Shown in pieces: positions 2,634-55,525 of a stretch of DNA of 64,000 nt. Numbering within the stretch: position 1 is the first letter of the stretch; each line of letters starts with the position of its first letter. Below the pieces are notes generated by a model. That model did not search any database, had not been told where the DNA came from, and worked only from the letters and a program-made list of their open reading frames with translations. A program made the translations under genes and the position numbers. Origin of the DNA: a virus. The stretch lies in IMG/VR virus record IMGVR_UViG_3300044641_006950, positions 1 through 64,000 of that record; one strand, 5' to 3'.

Positions 2634-3299
2634 CTATGCTATTCTGCGTCTATTACTTTTTGATGTATCTATTCCTTTTCCTTTTTGATGCTGAACTACA
2701 CCAGAAGCAGTAGATACATAACCACTTATACAACATTTCCATCTTTGAGAATTAGTTATTTTAGAATTTTCAATTCTCTGTTCTTTTGATAAACCACAAA
2801 CACCGATATTTAATTCTTTCTTTTTATAACCAGTTATTCTGCCGTGTTCAATCATTTCTTCCAAACTTCTTCCACAAATTCCAGTTTTATTTTCTCTATT
2901 GCTGTTTCCACCTTTTTTACCATCTTTACTCATTTGGTCTTTACTTCTTGAATGAACCCCTAATTTAAGTTCATATGCTTTTTTTCCTGCTTTACTTTTT
3001 TGCTCTAAAGAAAAAACTCCCAAGCAACTTTCATTTAAGCACCATTTATCGGTATTATATACTGGGTTAATTAATCTCCCTTCAACTTCTTGTGCTTTGA
3101 TATATCCTTCATCACTAAACTCAAAATATTCCAATATCTGTTTCTTTGGAGTATAAAGTCCCCAACACCATTTGTTTGCTACGGGAGAACCCCAATACTC
3201 TTCATCAAAATACCTTTCTTTTTTACTACCATAATAGTAATAAGGAACTTCTTCAAAGGTAACCTTATATGTGTAAATTCTAGGACTATTTTTAGTCAT
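2634..3299 (-). CDS. GIY-YIG-like free-standing homing endonuclease with NUMOD-like repeats
   Basis: 221-residue protein. The N-terminal third (residues about 7-100) matches the general plan of GIY-YIG nucleases: paired Tyr-rich strands (IYTYKVTFEE, YYYYGSKK), EEYWGSP, a helix with Glu (AQEVEGRLI) and NPVYNTDKWCLN. Residues about 100-180 hold repeated segments with Gly-Lys-Lys and S-x-EQ/EE motifs, like NUMOD3 DNA-binding repeats. The C-terminus (WKCCISGYVSTASG then KGKGIDTSK) is shared with the protein at 9017-9631. It would cut phage DNA at a specific site to spread its own gene. The gene has a late promoter between two inverted-repeat arms just upstream. It may instead be a related nuclease with another role, but the family call is fairly secure. 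Confidence 0.75.
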   Translation of the reverse strand: MTKNSPRIYTYKVTFEEVPYYYYGSKKERYFDEEYWGSPVANKWCWGLYTPKKQILEYFEFSDEGYIKAQEVEGRLINPVYNTDKWCLNESCLGVFSLEQKSKAGKKAYELKLGVHSRSKDQMSKDGKKGGNSNRENKTGICGRSLEEMIEHGRITGYKKKELNIGVCGLSKEQRIENSKITNSQRWKCCISGYVSTASGVVQHQKGKGIDTSKSNRRRIA

Positions 3300-3324
3300 T
3301 TCTATTCTATTTGGACGGCATTAT

Positions 3325-3332
3325 TATTTATA
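3325..3332 (-). promoter_or_regulatory. T4-type late promoter TATAAATA
   Basis: Exact TATAAATA on the minus strand, 26 bases before the ATG of the endonuclease gene at 3299 and inside the inverted repeat. This is the T4 gp55-dependent late consensus. Confidence 0.75.
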
Positions 3333-3339
3333 ATAGAAA

Positions 3340-3357
3340 AGGTGCCCGAAAGCACCT
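3340..3357 (-). terminator. Terminator after 3410-3637
   Basis: Minus-strand stem AGGTGC/GCACCT with loop TTTCGG, followed by TTTCTATT. It would stop transcripts of the upstream operon before the homing endonuclease gene. Confidence 0.65.
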
Positions 3358-3409
3358 AATCTTTTGTCTGTAGAGATTGCCGTCCAAACAGACACTTCTA
3401 TTTATTCTA

Positions 3410-7722: not shown

Positions 7723-8199
7723 TTACGAATAAGTGTATAATTTCCATTCTTGGATATTTGAACTGTGCAGAGTAAACTGCATTTTGTTTAATGGAGGTCT
7801 GGGTTTTTTTCTCAATTTCATTCCAGTTTGCTCCAATAATGTATTACCTTTTTTTGTATTACATGAACTACATGCAACTACAAGATTTTCCCAAGTATCT
7901 TCACCACCTCGACATTTTGGAATGATATGATCTATGGTTAGATTTCTGGTAGATCCACAATACTGACAAGAATTACTATCACGCTTATAGATCATCGTTT
8001 TTGATGGTCTATGTGACATAATTTTTGAAAGTGGAACTTTCACATAATCTAATAATCTGATTACTTGAGTTGAAAGAATTTGTGCTTTTTCTTTGAGAAG
8101 TAAAACTATTGCTCTCTTCCAACTTGTAATGTTAAGTGGTTCATAACTGGAATTTAAAACTAAAACAGATTTTCCAGGTTCAATTCTTAAGTAATCCAT
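7723..8199 (-). CDS. HNH endonuclease
   Basis: 158-residue protein. The nuclease core is near residues 77-125: a zinc-ribbon pair CQYCG and CSSCN, the catalytic LTIDHIIPKCRGGEDTWEN motif (D-H, then Asn) and a C-terminal KKGN. The N-terminal part (VLVLNSSYEPLNITSWKRAI) is the typical companion of a family of HNH proteins found in cyanobacteria and their phages. It should nick or cut DNA; the target is unknown. It could act as a homing endonuclease, in genome packaging or against host DNA. It sits alone between small genes with 4-6-base gaps. Confidence 0.85.
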   Translation of the reverse strand: MDYLRIEPGKSVLVLNSSYEPLNITSWKRAIVLLLKEKAQILSTQVIRLLDYVKVPLSKIMSHRPSKTMIYKRDSNSCQYCGSTRNLTIDHIIPKCRGGEDTWENLVVACSSCNTKKGNTLLEQTGMKLRKKPRPPLNKMQFTLHSSNIQEWKLYTYS

Positions 8200-9016: not shown

Positions 9017-9631
9017 TTAGTTATTTATTTTTACTTTTTTAGAAGTATCAATACCCCTCACTTTTTGATACCTTGTAAGAGGACCTATGGTAGATACCAT
9101 ACCAGTTTCCAAACACATCCACTTTTGAGAGTTTAACTTTTTAGAAGATATTATACCACCTTTTTTTCCATTCTCAACTAATTGCTCTTTTGTTAGAGCA
9201 AATATACCAGTTTTATTTTTCTTTGCCTGTTTAACAGATTTTTTAGCAGTTTCAGTTCTTTTTTCTGAGGACATCCCAAATATTCCGATTCCCATTTCTT
9301 TACATTTTGCCGACCCCCTTTTACCTCCAACTTTTCCTGCCTCACTTCTTTTCTGTAAGGATATATACCCAGCACAATTTTCATTTAGACACCACTTATC
9401 TTTATTATAAAACTCTTTTATTATTCTTGCTTCTACTCTTTGCGCTTCTTCCCAATCAACAAAATATTCTAATATCTGTTTCTTTGGAGTATAAGTTTCC
9501 CAGCACCATCTGTTGGTTACAGGAGACCCATAATACTCTTCGTTAAAATTTTTTTCTTTATGGACCCCATAATAATAATACGGCACTTCCTCAAAGGATA
9601 TACGATAAGTGTATATGCGTAGAGTATTCAT
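9017..9631 (-). CDS. GIY-YIG-like free-standing homing endonuclease, second copy
   Basis: 204-residue paralogue of the protein at 2634-3299. Shared blocks: RIYTYRISFEEVPYYYYG, EEYYGSPVTNRWCWETYTP, KKQILEYF, a Glu-bearing helix (AQRVEARIIKEFYN) and KWCLNENCAG. NUMOD-like segments follow (GKVGGKRG, SSEKRTETAKKS, TKEQLVENGKKGG). The C-terminus (SQKWMCLETGMVSTIG then RGIDTSKK) is again common to both. Divergence is high over the middle, so the copies are not recent duplicates. It has the same upstream layout: inverted repeat, terminator and exact TATAAATA. Confidence 0.75.
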   Translation of the reverse strand: MNTLRIYTYRISFEEVPYYYYGVHKEKNFNEEYYGSPVTNRWCWETYTPKKQILEYFVDWEEAQRVEARIIKEFYNKDKWCLNENCAGYISLQKRSEAGKVGGKRGSAKCKEMGIGIFGMSSEKRTETAKKSVKQAKKNKTGIFALTKEQLVENGKKGGIISSKKLNSQKWMCLETGMVSTIGPLTRYQKVRGIDTSKKVKINN

Positions 9632-9655
9632 ACTGCTTTTTATGTGTGGTAATAC

Positions 9656-9663
9656 TATTTATA
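9656..9663 (-). promoter_or_regulatory. T4-type late promoter TATAAATA
   Basis: Exact TATAAATA on the minus strand, 25 bases before the ATG at 9631, placed between the arms of the inverted repeat. Same position as the box before the first homing endonuclease. Confidence 0.75.
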
Positions 9664-9676
9664 CGAATTACGCAGT

Positions 9677-9702
9677 AAAAAAGGGGGGGGATCCCCCCTT
9701 TT
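9677..9702 (-). terminator. Strong terminator after 9732-9971
   Basis: Minus strand AAAAGGGG... then CCCCTTTTTT: a G-rich/C-rich stem with a U-run. It separates the small-gene operon from the homing endonuclease gene. Confidence 0.75.
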
Positions 9703-9731
9703 GCTTTTAGTTACCACACATAAAAGCATTA

Positions 9732-9971
9732 TTATTTATTCTTCTTTTCCAATTCTCCCATCAGTTCTTTCGCCATCTTCATAGATTTTCTGTAAATCAA
9801 CCATTTAACTATGATATTATCTGGTGAGTGAATTATCCACCACTTTGTTTTTTCATATTGTACTTGAGCAAGTTGAGTCAGCATATAAAATGCCCTCGCT
9901 ATGGATTGATCGGTAACAATTAAGTAAGCAATACAAAAAAAGATAACAAAGTATATGTAAGTGGAACTCAT
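9732..9971 (-). CDS. Small membrane protein, 79 aa
   Basis: An N-terminal hydrophobic span (MSSTYIYFVIFFCIAYLIVT, residues about 5-19) is followed by a basic, amphipathic helical part ending KELMGELEKKNK. Probably a single-pass protein with its tail in the cytoplasm. ATGA overlap with the upstream gene. Function unknown. Confidence 0.65.
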   Translation of the reverse strand: MSSTYIYFVIFFCIAYLIVTDQSIARAFYMLTQLAQVQYEKTKWWIIHSPDNIIVKWLIYRKSMKMAKELMGELEKKNK

Positions 9972-54858: not shown

Positions 54859-55525
54859 ATGATTCCAATTTATCTCTAACAAACTCTCTAATATATTGGG
54901 TGAGTAGTTTGATGTACTTTGATTTGTCTCTTTCTTCATAAACGACGCATTCTCCATTTTCGCAAGCCATAATAATTACAAGTTTTTTTACGGGAATTTC
55001 AGTAAGTTCATAGAACATACATGCATAAGCAACACACTGAACAAAATAATGTTCAATCCATTCCCGTGGTTTTGGTTTTTTAGATGTTTTAAAGTCTATT
55101 ATTGCTAATTCACCGTCAAACTCTGCAATACAATCTACAGTTCCTGCTACTCCAAGAATTTTGCTGTATAAGGAACTTTCAAGAGCATAAACATTATTTA
55201 TACGATTTAAATCTGGTTTAGAAATTTTAAACAAAAATTCTGACAGTGGTTGAACATCTGGTAAATTTTCATTCTTAAGGTGGTGTTCTACCAAAGTATG
55301 CATATCAGTACCACGACTAGTTGCTTGTTTGGTAATTTTATTTGCTTCTTCCTCACCCACTTTTTTACGCCAGTTAGCAAAAAACTGGCGATTTTTATGA
55401 CTGGTTACTGAAGTAATTGAAACAAGCCTAAGTAGTTGTTCAAGATCTGGTACTTTATAATAACGAACACCGTCTATAGTCTCCCTCTCAAGTTGAGGTA
55501 AATTCAAATCAATATGTTTAAACAT
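54848..55525 (-). CDS. PD-(D/E)XK nuclease, RecB/Cas4-like, 225 aa
   Basis: The catalytic core is about residues 75-160: HTLVEHHLKN (helix with His), GVAGTVDCIAEFDGELAIID (Asp), then DFKTSKKPKPREWIEHYFVQ (Asp-Phe-Lys and downstream helix), which is the PD-(D/E)XK plan. Such genes are common and unnamed in cyanophages, probably a DNA exonuclease in recombination, repair or host DNA breakdown. It is one base from the PhoH stop and overlaps gp33. Confidence 0.8.
   Translation of the reverse strand: MFKHIDLNLPQLERETIDGVRYYKVPDLEQLLRLVSITSVTSHKNRQFFANWRKKVGEEEANKITKQATSRGTDMHTLVEHHLKNENLPDVQPLSEFLFKISKPDLNRINNVYALESSLYSKILGVAGTVDCIAEFDGELAIIDFKTSKKPKPREWIEHYFVQCVAYACMFYELTEIPVKKLVIIMACENGECVVYEERDKSKYIKLLTQYIREFVRDKLESYGT

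Follow-up and report, generated by a model that had tools for sequence, protein, structure and literature searches.

The T4-type genes I-TevI, segB, mobE, e and soc rely on a late promoter located inside a hairpin (PMC2988022, PMC3014915). Small phage RNAs that pair with, or are antisense to, a region of a phage gene are exemplified by sar of P22 and by CfrI of S-PM2, an RNA of ~225 nt that runs on the opposite strand across psbA and a nuclease gene. In bacteria, type I toxin-antitoxin RNA pairs place a private RNA brake beside a harmful gene, occur in multiple copies and are largely orthogonal to one another.

The window analyzed here, a 64-kb stretch of an 85,710-base virus record related most closely, among annotated phages, to T4-like cyanophages including S-SRM01 and B23, carries a free-standing, homing-nuclease-like gene on its minus strand (2634..3299; 221 aa, ATG start). 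Judging from the parts of the region upstream of this gene (3297-3406, minus strand), and from comparisons that reveal covarying pairing, near-private arms, spread over unrelated nucleases and empty sites, we consider it probable that a mobile cassette controls the gene, with a late small RNA acting in trans to repress the nuclease mRNA and with the arms that mediate this pairing also silencing read-through transcripts in cis. We infer the existence of the transcripts, their timing, and repression rather than stabilization, the last from the position of the duplex; a search of the literature found no transcriptome of a cassette-carrying phage.

Read along the gene strand, the cassette consists of an upstream late promoter (P1), a 5' stem-loop, a terminator with its U-run, a second late promoter (P2), a complementary leader and the ATG. 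P1 (AATAAATA, 3406-3399) agrees at the motif level with NATAAATA, the published late-promoter consensus of cyanophages (PMC2984593). From its predicted +1 at the foot of the 5' hairpin, a G at 3393, to the end of the U-run at 3335 extends a segment that looks like a complete ~59-nt small RNA (3335..3393), with a predicted two-hairpin fold of -23.3 kcal/mol. The 5' stem-loop, TGTCTGT-TTGGACGGCAATCTCT-ACAGACA (3394-3365), holds the antisense sequence in its loop, and the terminator-like hairpin, AGGTGC-TTTCG-GGCACCTTTTCT (3357-3340), is again recognized at the motif level. P2, an exact TATAAATA (3332-3325), would drive the nuclease mRNA from a predicted +1 G at 3319, giving a leader of ~20 nt (3300..3319) with no clear Shine-Dalgarno sequence. 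A scan with Rfam covariance models returned no match near the gathering score.

The initial annotation had described an 11-bp inverted repeat here (3310-3320 and 3378-3388), enclosing a terminator and an exact late promoter, and each of these elements is indeed present, the hairpin and promoter on the minus strand. The 11-bp arms are exact reverse complements, and ungapped extension lengthens them to 15 nt (3306..3320 and 3378..3392; 93% complementary). The single DNA mismatch in the extended arms becomes a G.U pair in RNA, so that RNA pairing would be continuous. The arms lie 57 nt apart, and neither exact nor one-mismatch matches to the arm occur elsewhere in the window. The distal arm is the antisense segment of the predicted small RNA, and the proximal arm is the 5' end of the predicted P2 mRNA together with the one preceding base; this 15-nt stretch is complementary to both the 5' strand and the loop of the stem-loop. 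The loop of the small RNA appears to be antisense to its putative target across the first ~15 nt, forming a duplex predicted to end ~7 nt before the AUG. This duplex has a computed energy of -26.4 kcal/mol, compared with a mean of -9.0 and a minimum of -20.5 for shuffled leaders across all elements. P1, the 5' stem and a second cassette at 9740-9629 had been missed by the initial annotation. A third exact TATAAATA lies at 55195-55202 on the minus strand, outside any cassette; the window holds 3 such sites, against 7.5 predicted by shuffles.

In computed folds, the leader of the P2 RNA, which lacks the distal arm, is open when this RNA is folded alone. Either the small RNA or the read-through context closes it: the mean probability of being unpaired drops from 0.81 to 0.05 for leader nt 1-12, and for the -15..+6 region it goes from 0.58 down to 0.36. 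The earlier proposal that read-through RNA buries the start-proximal leader, by the hairpin and late-promoter logic used by T4 homing nucleases (PMC2988022), therefore holds as far as masking is concerned. As in T4 I-TevI, I-TevII and segB, Aeh1 mobE, e and soc, an inverted repeat covers the start region, a late promoter lies between its arms, the late RNA lacks the distal arm, and the gene is, as often in those systems, a homing nuclease. The design differs, however. In the 160 nt examined, T4 I-TevI and I-TevII have a compact hairpin whose arms contain or flank the promoter, one late promoter and no separate RNA, and P1, a competing 5' stem and an internal terminator were all absent, whereas the arms of the window cassette flank a terminator, and its second late promoter would make a distinct RNA. 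The cassette would thus work partly like the T4 switches, on a different plan.

We weighed whether it could nevertheless work in cis alone, like the switches of T4 I-TevI, segB, e and soc, with read-through RNA folding on itself, P2 RNA being freely translated, and no functional small RNA. The pairing of the arms over the leader in read-through RNA, the co-directional upstream gene found at 67/69 related loci, and a well-studied precedent (PMC2988022, PMC3014915) all speak for this reading. Yet it leaves unexplained a P1 that is conserved at the distal arm, a 5' stem that covaries and is in competition with the cis hairpin, and a terminator-like hairpin present in every one of the 56 elements aligned below, and the single late promoter of I-TevI and I-TevII sits inside a compact hairpin; we regard it as unlikely. 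It is in not accounting for these three features that the initial reading falls short. Trans action accounts for all of them, and we conclude that the arms may have a double role: in the terminated RNA they would repress in trans, and in read-through RNA they would silence in cis.

As would be expected of an antisense small RNA, the predicted RNA has its own promoter and an intrinsic terminator, both at the motif level, and its complementarity to the target is conserved and covaries. It resembles P22 sar and S-PM2 CfrI as a small phage RNA directed at a phage gene region, and CfrI further in that a homing-nuclease gene is involved. Unlike CfrI, it is predicted to come from the same strand, upstream of the gene, from one of two tandem promoters, and to carry an inverted-repeat code that differs between copies. 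The arrangement recalls type I toxin-antitoxin pairs in that it would set a private, multi-copy and largely orthogonal RNA brake beside a harmful gene, and it departs from them in other respects: both RNAs would be made from the same strand by tandem late promoters, the guarded genes are selfish nucleases rather than membrane toxins, and silencing in cis would operate as well.

To ask how widely this arrangement occurs, we scanned viral contigs for the protein, obtaining 188 relatives, of which 80 were kept; no relatives of the 221-aa protein were found in cellular genomes. This yielded 72 non-redundant upstream regions, gathered by protein homology alone, 69 of which could be parsed automatically and two others (L002 and L100) by eye. 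The layout of P1, hairpin, terminator, P2 and complementary leader lies upstream of 71/72. P2 is present at all 72 loci (an exact TATAAATA at 68), and a TAAATA occupies the place of P1, just above the distal arm, at 71; P1 equals NATAAATA in 60 of the 69 automatically parsed loci. After both promoters, T stands at -1 in 91%, and a purine at +1 in 92% (P1) and 100% (P2). Seven loci (L033, L048, L057, L063, L067, L069 and L086) have a tandem P2, for example TATAAACTNTTATAAATA, perhaps a doubled late promoter.

A covariance model built on the cassette recovered 109 copies from 47 phage records, 42 of them positive; these 47 were chosen for carrying a relative, an empty site or a neighboring gene and are not a random sample. 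There are six copies in S-SRM01 and three in B23; the cassette was sought and not found in S-PM2, S-B05, S-PRM1 and S-8S53, and is absent from the T4 regions tested. A 15-base DNA pattern used to scan viral contigs gave mostly chance matches, and we reused this set as a check on specificity, in which the model produced 9 hits in 738 kb, all scoring at least 66 bits. Such recurrence counts are inflated by relatedness, though hardly any pairing position is invariant among the arms. With more than 100 copies and clear covariation, the cassette is a strong candidate that could be tested in isolated phages, and, if the proposal is true, it would represent a widespread RNA brake on the selfish nucleases of freshwater cyanobacterial viruses.

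Different yet complementary arms are found at 56 distinct loci, and covariation was computed on an alignment of these 56 rows. In the arm helix, 94.2% of cells are paired, compared with 31-46% when the partner is slid, and the covariation score is 0.762, compared with at most 0.147. Changes on both sides occur in 13 of the 15 arm pairs. The terminator-like hairpin lies between the arms in all 56 elements and is built from 28 different stems, and the predicted fold of 5' hairpin plus terminator is conserved throughout. The 5' stem (UGUCUGU/ACAGACA) is likewise kept through paired changes, among them UGUCUGU/ACGGACA, UACCUG/CAGGUA and UGCUUUUA/UAAAAGCA. Cognate arms have a mean duplex energy of -23.1 kcal/mol and non-cognate arms -10.2 kcal/mol, the best of 10,000 permuted means being -12.5 kcal/mol.

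The mismatches that do occur bear on whether the repeat might act as DNA. Across the first 11 bp there are 21 G.U and 3 A.C, counts that are not independent because the sequences are related; this asymmetry is strand-specific and therefore fits RNA of this strand, not a DNA site or cruciform. An operator for the nuclease or another protein has some appeal, since I-TevI represses its own late promoter (PMC2988022) and the proximal arm lies just below P2. However, the arms vary at nearly every position while complementarity is kept, and identical arms precede unrelated nucleases. We rejected an operator on the G.U/A.C asymmetry, and consider autorepression of this kind very improbable. The pairing of the arms thus appears to be under selection, and to be selected as RNA.

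How could such pairing control the nuclease? Late in infection, the late sigma machinery of the phage would use both tandem promoters. Transcription from P1 would give the ~59-nt RNA, ending at the internal terminator and presenting its antisense loop on the 5' hairpin, while P2 would give the nuclease mRNA, whose first ~15 nt form the exact target. Pairing could begin between the loop GGCA and the mRNA 5' UGCC and then spread as the 5' stem opens, and the resulting 15-bp duplex, stopping ~7 nt short of the AUG, would block ribosome entry. The manner in which initiation is blocked is an assumption, as the mRNA has no clear Shine-Dalgarno sequence. Transcripts that run past the terminator, whether begun at P1 or coming from genes upstream, would be silenced in cis by the same arms. 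Because P1 and P2 would share one activator, the nuclease may on balance be made at a low level or in a short pulse, tracking late transcription.

The small RNA could instead activate, if its pairing covered the mRNA 5' end and so protected the message from 5'-dependent decay. Pairing does begin at the predicted first nucleotide of the mRNA, where it would shield the end. But the duplex reaches to within ~7 nt of the AUG, inside the expected ribosome footprint, and every control of a T4 homing nuclease covered in a review is negative (PMC2988022), and we therefore give activation little credence and favor repression.

The position of P1 raises a separate question, namely whether it belongs to the cassette at all. 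In 36 of 67 loci, P1 supplies the stop codon of the upstream gene; in the other 31 the stop lies at or before P1, and P1 is still kept. Part of the conservation of P1 could be due to this role. Where P1 (TAAATAA or TAAATAG) serves as the stop, as in L112-L113, one motif ends a protein and is predicted to start an RNA. P1 might then be a late promoter or stop codon left over from the host gene at the insertion site, with the RNA as a by-product. This would fit the frequent location of the stop within P1, and also the second site in the window, where AATAAATA is already present at the stop codon of the upstream gene when the locus is empty. Against it, P1 is not needed as a stop in 31/67 loci, the hairpin and terminator downstream of it are conserved, and the first site tells a different story: eight contigs have a gene-free junction there, with overlapping flanking genes and no P1-like sequence, so P1 probably arrived with the insert. 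A leftover P1 thus seems most unlikely to us, and we retain P1 as the promoter of the putative small RNA.

One locus, L098 (upstream of 1501), appears as a chimera with a small-RNA half like that of L078 and a leader like that of L001. It is the locus in which P1 is absent, and its arm pairing is weakened to -14.1. L098 is a natural broken copy, and therefore the device is not indispensable.

Both window sites are known in occupied and empty form, as expected of mobile elements. At the second (window 9629-9740; also L113 and L172), three phages carry three different elements, and many others are empty. In the window this site holds a paralogous nuclease gene (9017..9631, minus strand; 204 aa) with its own cassette upstream (9740-9629, minus strand), comprising P1 (AATAAATA, 9740-9733, motif level), a predicted small RNA from P1 to terminator (~9727-9677) and P2 (TATAAATA, 9663-9656), with the leader starting at 9650. 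The arms are unrelated in sequence to those of the first copy, and the computed energies follow suit: -26.4 and ~-23 kcal/mol for copies 1 and 2 with themselves, and -5.4 and -6.8 kcal/mol for the crosses. Genomes with 3-9 copies show mostly weak cross-pairing too. In one of them (G030), however, one arm pair is an exact duplicate and another a near-duplicate, with crosses of -20.9 and -20.2, and the arm code is therefore not fully private. Such largely orthogonal loops would amount to a natural set of RNA regulators.

The 221-aa protein pairs a GIY-YIG-like N-terminal domain with modular DNA-binding repeats at its C-terminus. An AlphaFold model of the N-domain (pLDDT 87.6, 55 sequences) adopts a GIY-YIG fold and matches Seg-like/GIY-YIG homing nucleases in BFVD (TM 0.77); neither a fold nor a sequence search of the PDB gave a significant match, and a full-length model from 12 sequences was poor. 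Like free-standing Seg/GIY-YIG endonucleases, the protein has this N-domain fold, modular repeats and empty sites in relatives. Unlike them, it belongs to a divergent family, here called YYYYG, that falls below Pfam thresholds: Pfam gave no GIY-YIG match, Pfam and PHROG searches yielded nothing useful, and profile comparison with canonical GIY-YIG was weak and not significant. Kinship is thus visible in the predicted fold, not in sequence profiles. Y9, Y11, Y21-G24, E73 and N89 are invariant in the family, and the position of the GIY-YIG catalytic Arg is probably taken by Lys27 in nearly all members. Residues 90-221 align with an HNH protein (E 7e-28) and a GIY-type protein (E 2e-23), indicating a C-terminal module common to all three. 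An HNH endonuclease gene in the window (7723-8199, minus strand; Pfam HNH 2e-16) has no cassette upstream.

The cassette is likewise spread over different nucleases. Among 78 copies examined together with their genes, 70 precede five nuclease groups (three GIY-YIG types, the YYYYG family and an HNH type), and the remainder include further HNH-like genes, a T5orf172-like protein recognized by eye, TnpB (Pfam OrfB_IS605, 4e-29) and three coiled-coil proteins. Over 95 nt the first-site cassette does not differ from one that precedes an HNH gene, and its arms recur before two further GIY-YIG types. The same cassette therefore serves expression rather than one protein, and a private RNA-protein partnership was rejected on this ground. 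It seems to be mobilized as one piece, extending from a point just below P1 to the start codon. On balance, we lean towards a small-RNA cassette that is mobile and independent of the nuclease. Any selfish nuclease (several GIY-YIG types, HNH, T5orf172-like, TnpB) could acquire this unit of tandem late promoters; each copy would have its own antisense code, copies within one genome would be under largely independent control, and together they would form a trans-acting regulatory RNA family that stands guard over selfish genes in T4-like phages. An exchangeable regulatory module would then be common to unrelated selfish nucleases, including TnpB, a point relevant to the tolerance of phages for numerous homing genes.

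The TnpB copy, L280, lies on the minus strand of a cyanophage contig (G002:C1:33200-34650), where a cassette with an arm duplex of -21.3 kcal/mol stands before the gene for this RNA-guided nuclease. The coiled-coil proteins are small (147-190 aa), have no Pfam match and are not recognizable as nucleases; the cassettes before them (L247 2111; L252 42, reverse; L269 79) have strong arm pairing (-26 to -27).
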